The notes under the pieces are model-generated. The model had not been told where the DNA came from, did no database searches, and saw nothing but the letters and a program-made list of their open reading frames with translations. Both the position numbers and the translations under genes were made by a program. Shown here in pieces: positions 4,485-7,229 of a stretch of 64,000 nucleotides of DNA. The DNA lies in assembly GCF_030539665.1 (NCBI RefSeq), contig NZ_JAUNXR010000001.1, positions 350,767 through 414,766 on the forward strand, in the 5' to 3' direction. Within the stretch, counting starts at the first letter, position 1, and each line of letters starts with the position of its first letter. This stretch comes from Methanobrevibacter sp. Its GTDB lineage: Archaea; Methanobacteriota; Methanobacteria; Methanobacteriales; Methanobacteriaceae.

Positions 4485-4679
4485 TATTTAAATTGTGCAA
4501 AATAGATTGTCAGCAATTAATAAATGTATTGGAATTAGAGGATTGTATTTTCAAATAAAACTCCAATAATTTAGAAAGAGGATGACATTATTAAAATTTC
4601 CTTGCTTACATTTTGCTCATATAGCAAATATTATTAAGTTGTTATAATATAATACTTAATTAAGGTAAAATGCTTTGCG

Positions 4680-7229
4680 GTGATAATAATTAGTTTCTGG
4701 GACAATATTAAAAACAAATTAAATACCAAAAATCCTGCTTTAGAACTTCAAAAAAAGATAATCAATGATCTTGATGAAGGAAAATCTTTCCATGATGCTA
4801 TAGGGGATGATAAGGAGATTGTTGTTCAATGGTATGTTAAGGGTCGCAGAGGCAATGAACTTTATGCTAATTTTTATAATCAATTGAAGACCTTGGCTAG
4901 TGAGGATTTGATGATTGAGGATTTGACCACAATCGTAGATTCGGTCAAAGAGTCTGGACAGTTTCTAAACACCATGCAGAATTTCGTACTGTTCAACGAT
5001 CCTTTAGAAATCAATGAATGGTATCTAAAAGGCCGTGACGGCGATGCTGCATATAGTTGGTTTTATAATTCAATAAAGCAATATGCATTTCAGGATGTCA
5101 TAAGATATGATGAAAAACTATTGTTTGGATTATTGGATGATGGTGTTGACTTGGATGTTGCTTTAAACTCATCAAAAATATTTTCAAGCAAGAGGGAATT
5201 CAAGGAAAACGAATATCCATTAATAAAATCATTTGTTGAGAAACATTCGAAAGAGACCATTGTTTTTGGCCTTAAGGAAGGAAAACAGTTTTCAGATTTG
5301 ATTGAAAGTGAGGACATCTACAATACTCCTGAAGAGATTATCTCATGGTATGAGCAAGGAAGAAATGGGGAACTGGAACATGTGGAATTTTACAGGCAGG
5401 CATTGCCTTTTGTTGTAAAGCAGGACTATAATAAGGTCAGCGAAGCAATCAACGAAGGAGTTCCAATTGAAGAGCTCTTAAGTTTAACAAGCGTAATATC
5501 TTCCAATCAGGAATTCAACGACTATTTGCCGCTCCATGGGTCTGGTTTTGAAAGTTTTATAGAACAGGACATGCAGAAAGCCATTTTAAACAGCTGTCTC
5601 TCAGGAGCTTCATTTGGAGATGCAATCAAAAGTCACGTTTTAAAATACAATCCAAAAGACTTTGAAATATGGTATAGGTTGGGAAGAGGAGGGGACTCCC
5701 AATATAAGGATTTCTTCGATAACATATCTCCATTCGTATTAAAGGATGATTGTGAAACAATATTTGCAGCAGTTGAGCAGGGCAAAACATTAATTGAAGC
5801 AATTGAGGACTCCGAAATATTAAATTCAAAGGAATTCATGGAAAAATTATATTCGATGGATGAATTTGAGAGTGGGGATATAGCCGCTCTTGTAAACAGG
5901 ACAATAGAACTGCTTATTTCAAATACCAATTACTCTTTAATAGGTTTCGATTTCAATGCTGAGAATGAAAATGTCAATCAATGGATTGAGCTGGGCAAAC
6001 TTGGTATTTATCCGTTCAAGGAGTTTTATGACGAATATTTGATTTACATAACTCAATCAAAGGTAATCGAAGCACTTAACAGGGACGAATTGTTCATTAA
6101 TGCAGTAAATACGGAAGATTTGCCATATAAGGCAGAAGAAATAATCGACTGGTTCCTAAAAGGCAAAAATGGGGAAAGATATGTGGAGTTCTATGAAAAA
6201 TGCGCTCCATTCACAATTAATGAAACAAAACAGAACATTATTGATCATTTGGAAATGTATCATTCTTTTAATCAGGCCATTAAACAACATGGCAAGTTTC
6301 ACGGTGAGAATGAAATTAGGGAATGGTTTAACAAAGGCAAAAACGGGGAAGAGCATGTAGAATTTTATGAGACATGTATGGAAATAATGAATCAATTCAA
6401 AGGCTCAATCAATTCCCTGGCCGATTTGCTGACACCAAAATACGAGAAAAAACTGAAATCTGCCGTATTGACTGTAGAGGAGTATGATGAGATAATTGAA
6501 GAGATATATCGGATGGGAGAATCTCTTGTCAAGTTTGATGAAGACGATTCCACATTTGACAAGGTTTCAAAAATCGTAAATGCTTATGCTCCATGGTCTT
6601 ACAAGTCAAAGGGGGGAGAATCAGGTTTTTACATGTCTAATTTTATCAAATTGGATGATAGGCTCTTGGTTTCACAAAAAATAGCTACACTGATTCACGA
6701 ACTGACACATCATTTAGTGTCGGAAATTCTCGAAATAGCATTGTGTTATATGTTGGATGTTGAAAAAACTCAGGCAATCGAAGGTTTCGTTGCGTTTTTC
6801 CTGATGGATCCGTTAACCAAAATCATGAATGAATACTGTGCCAGCACTGTTGAAGGAAGGTTCATTCTTCACGGATTCCAAAATTACGGAGCATATGACA
6901 TTGCCATGGAAGAATGCAGTGCTGACGGTTCTATTAAGGAACTGTACACTTACATGGGCAATACTCTTGCAGATGATATTATTTCTCTGTTGGAACGCTT
7001 CATTGATGAGGATTTGAGAAACGATATCAAAAACCAGTTCATTGACGACAGATTCCCTCCAAGGTATGATGGAATATATTATGAATGTTCACATACGGTT
7101 CCAAAGGATGTTACAATAGGATTGCTTTCTGAAGCGATTGTGGATTACTATAATTTGGCCAAGAATTCCGATGCTCACAAGCATAATTTGAAAGTGGCTT
7201 ATGATAGCTTTGACAAGTCTTATCAATGA
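4680..7229 (+). CDS. Large repeat protein with C-terminal zincin (HExxHH) domain, unrecognised
   Basis: I do not recognise this 849-residue protein as a named family. Residues 1-570 contain seven copies of a unit with consensus EIxxWYxxGxxGxxxYxEFY, with the aromatic pair at 51, 114, 223, 331, 435, 491 and 549, separated by helical segments with an EGxxxxDAI-like pattern (for example DEGKSFHDAI at 32-41). The C-terminal 250 residues carry HELTHHLV (His673, Glu674, His677), the zinc site of gluzincin peptidases, preceded by a helix, and MEECSAD at 743-749 as candidate third ligand region. No signal peptide or membrane segment is seen, so it is probably cytoplasmic. Start is GTG 4680; the nearest Shine-Dalgarno-like AAGGT (4662-4666) is rather distant. 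It appears monocistronic. Confidence 0.85.
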   Translation: MIIISFWDNIKNKLNTKNPALELQKKIINDLDEGKSFHDAIGDDKEIVVQWYVKGRRGNELYANFYNQLKTLASEDLMIEDLTTIVDSVKESGQFLNTMQNFVLFNDPLEINEWYLKGRDGDAAYSWFYNSIKQYAFQDVIRYDEKLLFGLLDDGVDLDVALNSSKIFSSKREFKENEYPLIKSFVEKHSKETIVFGLKEGKQFSDLIESEDIYNTPEEIISWYEQGRNGELEHVEFYRQALPFVVKQDYNKVSEAINEGVPIEELLSLTSVISSNQEFNDYLPLHGSGFESFIEQDMQKAILNSCLSGASFGDAIKSHVLKYNPKDFEIWYRLGRGGDSQYKDFFDNISPFVLKDDCETIFAAVEQGKTLIEAIEDSEILNSKEFMEKLYSMDEFESGDIAALVNRTIELLISNTNYSLIGFDFNAENENVNQWIELGKLGIYPFKEFYDEYLIYITQSKVIEALNRDELFINAVNTEDLPYKAEEIIDWFLKGKNGERYVEFYEKCAPFTINETKQNIIDHLEMYHSFNQAIKQHGKFHGENEIREWFNKGKNGEEHVEFYETCMEIMNQFKGSINSLADLLTPKYEKKLKSAVLTVEEYDEIIEEIYRMGESLVKFDEDDSTFDKVSKIVNAYAPWSYKSKGGESGFYMSNFIKLDDRLLVSQKIATLIHELTHHLVSEILEIALCYMLDVEKTQAIEGFVAFFLMDPLTKIMNEYCASTVEGRFILHGFQNYGAYDIAMEECSADGSIKELYTYMGNTLADDIISLLERFIDEDLRNDIKNQFIDDRFPPRYDGIYYECSHTVPKDVTIGLLSEAIVDYYNLAKNSDAHKHNLKVAYDSFDKSYQ

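Follow-up and report, generated by a model that had tools for sequence, protein, structure and literature searches.

Zinc peptidases with an HExxH motif and a downstream glutamic acid follow the gluzincin pattern, and those M78-type peptidases that have been investigated cut HTH regulators specifically, as a means of regulation, with ImmA–ImmR and PprI–DdrO both being two-protein pairs. PprI carries a GAF-like domain and an HTH in addition to its zinc peptidase; it binds ssDNA, and its cleavage target is the HTH repressor DdrO (PMC10904395). In a window of 64,000 nucleotides from Methanobrevibacter sp. (the whole stretch of DNA that was analysed) we have found a gene whose product carries a tandem array of HTH modules in front of a C-terminal domain resembling these peptidases. 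This architecture is new, its component parts are of known kinds, and among the papers listed in a literature search no title describes such a combination of HTH array and metallopeptidase. It can now be stated what the two halves of this unannotated protein are, and we consider it rather probable that the protein is an intracellular ImmA/IrrE/PprI-like zinc metallopeptidase whose action is directed or gated by about eight HTH modules forming an N-terminal solenoid.

The gene occupies positions 4680–7229 of the forward strand, on which the features described within and just before it also lie, as one uninterrupted frame of 849 residues, just as the initial annotation had it. Its start codon is GTG, and the orthologues have an in-frame ATG one codon 5' of the position aligned with this GTG. 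About 26–38 bases upstream of the start codon we found the TATA-like sequence TTATAATATAATA (4642–4654), possibly the promoter of a nearly leaderless transcript as judged from its letters, which is largely retained at the orthologous locus L037 and is shorter at L008. Full-length orthologues are present in genome G033 (L008/L059, 70% identity) and in Methanobrevibacter sp. UBA586 (L037, 76%, on a contig identical to G098:C28), the latter with a frame that is interrupted where the assembly has N. In comparison to the G033 orthologue, which is near saturation at silent sites, pN/pS amounts to 0.23 for the whole gene, 0.26 for the repeats and 0.15 for the peptidase domain, and both halves are under purifying selection.

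In the window protein no Pfam or NCBIfam family scores above its cut-off. For the C-terminal metallopeptidase domain (residues 575–849, 6402–7226) we used profile A2, an alignment of 44 relatives reaching down to 25% identity. Invariant across all 44 are H673, E674, L675 and H677 of the zinc-binding motif HELTH (6696–6710) as well as E718 and A721 (NEYCA) within the motif NEYCASTVEGRF (residues 717–728, 6828–6863), and the catalytic residues are retained in all three fusion proteins known. The initial annotation had correctly noticed HELTHH at residues 673–678 and had proposed a glutamic acid in MEECSAD (743–749) as a further ligand, but this stretch reads MKECNAE in the closest orthologue and LEEQKDE in L009. 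As MEECSAD varies and E718 of NEYCASTVEGRF is the invariant downstream acid in the 44 relatives, E718 is the better candidate and the probable third zinc ligand.

Such an arrangement resembles that of M78 (ImmA, IrrE/PprI; PF06114), where HExxH is followed by a glutamic acid in an E-x2-A motif (E718-Y-C-A721 in the window protein); the stretch before HExxH can also be aligned, and the association with HTH modules is a further likeness. Matches of individual family members are weak, with 32 of the 44 matching Peptidase_M78 (best 6.6e-5) and 35 matching DUF6782 (best 2.8e-4). In a search of genomes a single member exceeded the M78 cut-off (23.9 versus 22 bits), and for the window protein no M78 match is listed even at E 10. 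A comparison of the peptidase family with eleven bona fide M78 proteins of the same genus (profile A4) using hhalign resulted in 80.6%, E 1.3e-5 and a score of 46.5, against a highest score of 23.4 in 100 column shuffles. The weak matches to the putative metallopeptidase DUF6782 (PF20573) are located around HExxH and span only a few tens of residues, and all scores shown stay below the 27-bit gathering cut-off, which is not reached with 14.4 bits. In contrast to M78, the window protein has its E718 separated from H677 by 40 residues, about twice the spacing of the M78 relatives (19 in L132), contains a large extra helical segment, stays below the Pfam cut-off and carries its HTH modules N-terminally and in multiple copies. 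AlphaFold2 with only two sequences of the peptidase domain gave a pLDDT of 35 and no usable model. PDB searches with sequence and profile returned nothing credible, as matches to ribosomal S16 and antibodies were due to chance and zinc-ribbon matches derive from the N-termini of relatives. The domain belongs to a Methanobacteriaceae family distantly related to M78 (ImmA/IrrE/PprI) and DUF6782. The earlier idea of a cytoplasmic gluzincin peptidase with N-terminal repeats thus survives as a probably intracellular gluzincin-type enzyme (HExxH plus glutamic acid, M78 profile likeness), without its choice of glutamic acid and without the likeness of its repeats to TPR.

The repeats themselves are real and far above chance. 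Profile A3, built by iteration from the seven units reported initially as seeds, recovers eight recognisable units in the window protein, the additional one being partial, with E values of about 1e-19 for the best unit and 1e-10 to 1e-19 for most. The units are about 51–60 residues long and begin with unit 1 (residues 24–76, 4749–4907) and unit 2 (84–141, 4929–5102), followed by the top-scoring unit 3 (191–250, 5250–5429; also found with profile A5) and unit 4 (299–358, 5574–5753). Only the first half of unit 5 is present (359–385, 5754–5834), the first half of unit 6 (424–460, 5949–6059) is degenerate, and unit 7 (459–517, 6054–6230) passes directly into unit 8 (517–574, 6228–6401), the last helix of the former running on as the first helix of the latter. 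A3 also finds the same unit in the orthologues and in other proteins, and A5, made from the units of the fusion proteins alone, finds long repeat proteins in independent genomes with single-genome E values of 1e-9 to 1e-11.

It is through these relatives that the nature of the unit becomes visible. Seven of their 33 units match PHROG 4102, described as 'terminase small subunit' (best 1.6e-8), and the homologous repeat protein at L040 matches it over the whole protein with 2.4e-14. Two of the homologous repeat proteins have units above the Pfam gathering score of HTH_28 (41.1 and 35.8 bits against 25), and in one protein that of HTH_23 is exceeded as well (28.8 bits, cut-off 24.6). The units of the window protein show weak HTH matches in some cases and none above a Pfam gathering score. 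When the units of the fusions were aligned by hhalign with those of the long proteins (the ones passing the HTH cut-offs and similar ones), 98.7%, E 4e-16 and a score of 71.8 were obtained, with none of 100 column shuffles scoring above 22.8. An AlphaFold2 model of units 7 and 8 (pLDDT 94.5, pTM 0.84) shows helices at 2–9, 14–20 and 27–38 and a long helix at 44–69, which closes unit 7 and opens unit 8, and then the same order again; H1, H2 and H3 comprise 8, 7 and 12 residues, and a turn separates H2 from H3. With this pair, Foldseek retrieved nothing significant from PDB or the viral library; among its twenty weak viral matches (E about 2–10), five are called terminase small subunits. The repeats are HTH modules of the phage small-terminase/HTH_28 type, arranged in tandem and packed as a solenoid. 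Each unit is like HTH_28, HTH_23 and the small-terminase HTH (PHROG 4102) in its sequence profile and helix order, but the window protein differs from them in being a tandem of eight with shared helices, in its acidity and in a turn that is about two residues longer. As the locus has no large subunit and no phage genes, the protein was rejected as a terminase, and the search for relatives in viral contigs, plasmids and phages found none.

That the repeats bind their targets in the way of TPR or Sel1, as initially suggested, would also fit helical repeats with solenoid-like packing, and two units give weak TPR_11 matches. The best of these reaches only 0.02 and the whole window protein has no TPR or Sel1 match, whereas the HTH and terminase profile matches are many orders stronger. 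A unit of about 51–60 residues built around an HTH core with its turn and helices of 8, 7 and 12 residues is also different from the paired antiparallel helices of 34–38 residues found in TPR/Sel1, and we regard a TPR/Sel1-like repeat peptidase as extremely improbable.

For a peptidase gated by an HTH solenoid, the following course of events can be proposed. Zinc would be held by H673, H677 and E718 with E674 acting as catalytic base, and the HTH array would bind one specific partner, either a protein, for instance an HTH regulator, or a complex of protein and nucleic acid. The array would then bring or expose the bound partner to the peptidase, which might perform a limited regulatory cut and not bulk protein degradation. 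By analogy this would correspond to the division of labour in PprI/IrrE in a single-chain version, with the sensing part replaced by the HTH solenoid. In relatives both halves have been shuffled into combinations with nucleic-acid or defence parts, which agrees with this reading. No gene for a possible substrate, for example an XRE repressor, was found next to the window gene. The repeat region is strongly acidic (net charge −47, pI 4.55), which makes simple DNA binding by every unit less likely, even if the proteome of the host is likewise acidic (median pI about 5); the acidity favours a protein as ligand and the family context a nucleic acid.

We found the complete fusion in three species only, and the fused peptidases of these species form one clade with a support of 100/100, whose nearest relative by path is the zinc-ribbon member L009 in genome G011. 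All three genes are located between the gene for fumarate hydratase beta and korD of the 2-oxoglutarate oxidoreductase operon, which are divergent in the window; judged by sequence, the neighbours are FKBP-type isomerase-like, fumarate hydratase beta, korDABC and sucC-like genes. In most other genomes of the genus examined the fumarate hydratase beta gene and korD are directly adjacent with a short gap. Since the junction is empty there, the fusion gene is an accessory one that was inserted at a constant site; together with the TATA-like sequence this bears out the initial impression of a gene that stands alone with its own upstream region. An acetyltransferase-like gene is present at this junction in genome G020 and possibly another gene in G007 (junction loci L155 and L162), so that the site seems to take insertions repeatedly.

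The narrow distribution, the degeneration of several units and the interrupted copy of UBA586 might be taken as signs of a decaying or inactive remnant, a chance fusion without present function. With pN/pS values of 0.15–0.26 against an orthologue near silent-site saturation and with catalytic residues intact in all three fusions this seems very improbable, and the break in UBA586 coincides with N in a draft contig in which the neighbouring genes are broken as well.

Each half is far commoner on its own, as repeats lacking the peptidase or as a peptidase lacking repeats, than in the fusion, and the repeat copies are not always coupled to the HExxH domain, a point that the initial annotation had wanted checked. 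Already the genome of the window encodes a split pair of paralogues, one with the peptidase domain only (322 aa, C4:115488) and one with repeats only (593 aa, C4 near 70 kb). By eye, the repeat-only paralogue adjoins a valyl-tRNA-synthetase-like gene and four tandem SseB-like genes (L181:9795-18276). The peptidase domain is present in 66 of 67 genomes of the genus and in parts of three other genera of Methanobacteriaceae, and it was not found in the other members of the phylum searched. Among 138 genomes from two further archaeal phyla its profile matched nothing, in a search that had no positive control there. Weak matches of profile A1 in 12 genera were discounted, as trimming of the zinc ribbons left 4 genera. 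In gut-type methanogens of the Methanobrevibacter kind, two under-described lineage-specific families come into view, namely the tandem HTH solenoids and M78-like peptidases that fall below public family cut-offs although they occur in nearly all members of the genus.

N-terminal partners of the peptidase domain in relatives include zinc ribbons, MrcB_N (L043, E 8e-36; L045, 2e-11) and, from inspection of the sequence by eye, TPR-like segments (L015, L055). A protein of 1,167 aa (L114:2598-6101) combines HSDR_N, SWI2_SNF2 and a double zinc ribbon with a C-terminal M78-like peptidase, and a similar frame was seen in G112:C37. The zinc-ribbon member (L060:10366-11334, L061:7742-8728) adjoins RNase P, proteasome alpha and exosome genes by eye in the two genomes examined and may be a housekeeping protease. 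That this widespread member stands beside such genes in both genomes could suggest that the fusion is an active peptidase whose array is a mere assembly scaffold for other proteins, a general or housekeeping adaptor without regulatory cleavage of an HTH partner. An acidic array and a continuous-helix solenoid resembling protein-binding rods would agree with this, but the fusion is rare with its three species, which is not expected for a housekeeping function, and the M78-like peptidases so far studied cut specifically and for regulation (PMC10904395). We therefore judge the scaffold to be quite unlikely.

The genomic surroundings of the homologous repeat proteins were also examined. Repeat proteins of about 880 aa lie 3–10 kb from a peptidase-domain gene at L110, L111 and L114, and such proximity is also evident from coordinates in G003:C19, G112:C37 and G099:C22. 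These loci are not independent since they are partly syntenic, but their proximity is suggestive of a functional link, with the fusion as the natural joining of such neighbours. At two other loci (L118:1847-15196 and L119:3015-16972) repeat proteins of 1,194–1,515 aa adjoin a BrxD/SngB-like ATPase and a BrxHI/SngC-like helicase, for which scores were obtained at L118 (1.8e-77 and 5.7e-152) and which were assigned by sequence likeness only at L119. Similar-looking ATPase and helicase neighbours, also judged by sequence likeness only, are present at L115, L116 and L120, and across these five loci the HTH-repeat proteins span 1,200–1,660 aa. Loci of the L118/L119 type could possibly represent a Shango/BREX-like system of archaea in which a protein with an HTH solenoid takes the position of SngA. 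A repeat protein of 1,686 aa in which 10 units were found (L117:3492-11114) has a PbeC/DndD homologue (1.4e-183) one small gene away.

The likeness to Shango (SngABC) and to BrxD–BrxHI of BREX concerns these homologues and not the window gene, which has no SngB/SngC or BrxD/BrxH neighbours and no PADLOC match. Nevertheless, the array might bind nucleic acid as phage small terminases do, making the window protein a nucleic-acid-sensing protease and possibly an anti-virus effector or regulator. The small-terminase HTH is the closest viral family, helix 3 is followed by a basic G[RK]xG loop in most units, homologous repeat proteins stand beside BREX/Shango-like genes (L118, L119) and the PbeC/DndD homologue (L117), the peptidase domain of relatives is fused to HsdR-type and MrcB_N domains, and the M78 peptidase PprI senses ssDNA (PMC10904395). 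However, the net charge of the array is strongly negative, and the gene, for which PADLOC gave no match, resides at a constant place among housekeeping genes (fumarate hydratase, kor operon) and in no defence island, making a nucleic-acid sensor rather unlikely in our opinion. With the recurrent peptidase–restriction domain fusions and the HTH proteins beside BREX/Shango-like genes, it becomes testable whether these families act in the virus defence or stress signalling of archaea. On a broader scale, and with considerable doubt, one could imagine a Methanobacteriaceae toolkit of terminase-HTH-derived solenoids of up to 1,700 aa and 10 or more units that serve as sensors or scaffolds in anti-virus or stress systems, the window protein being a sensor that directly controls an M78-like protease. 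If true, this would be a single-chain signal-activated protease unlike the two-protein pairs ImmA–ImmR and PprI–DdrO. Among the HTH-repeat proteins, those at L040:901-3513 and L042:840-4070 carry a different repeat (DPDIYAPLP...TGIAWV...IDIPDDFVIP) in their C-terminal part, where it is present in three or four copies.
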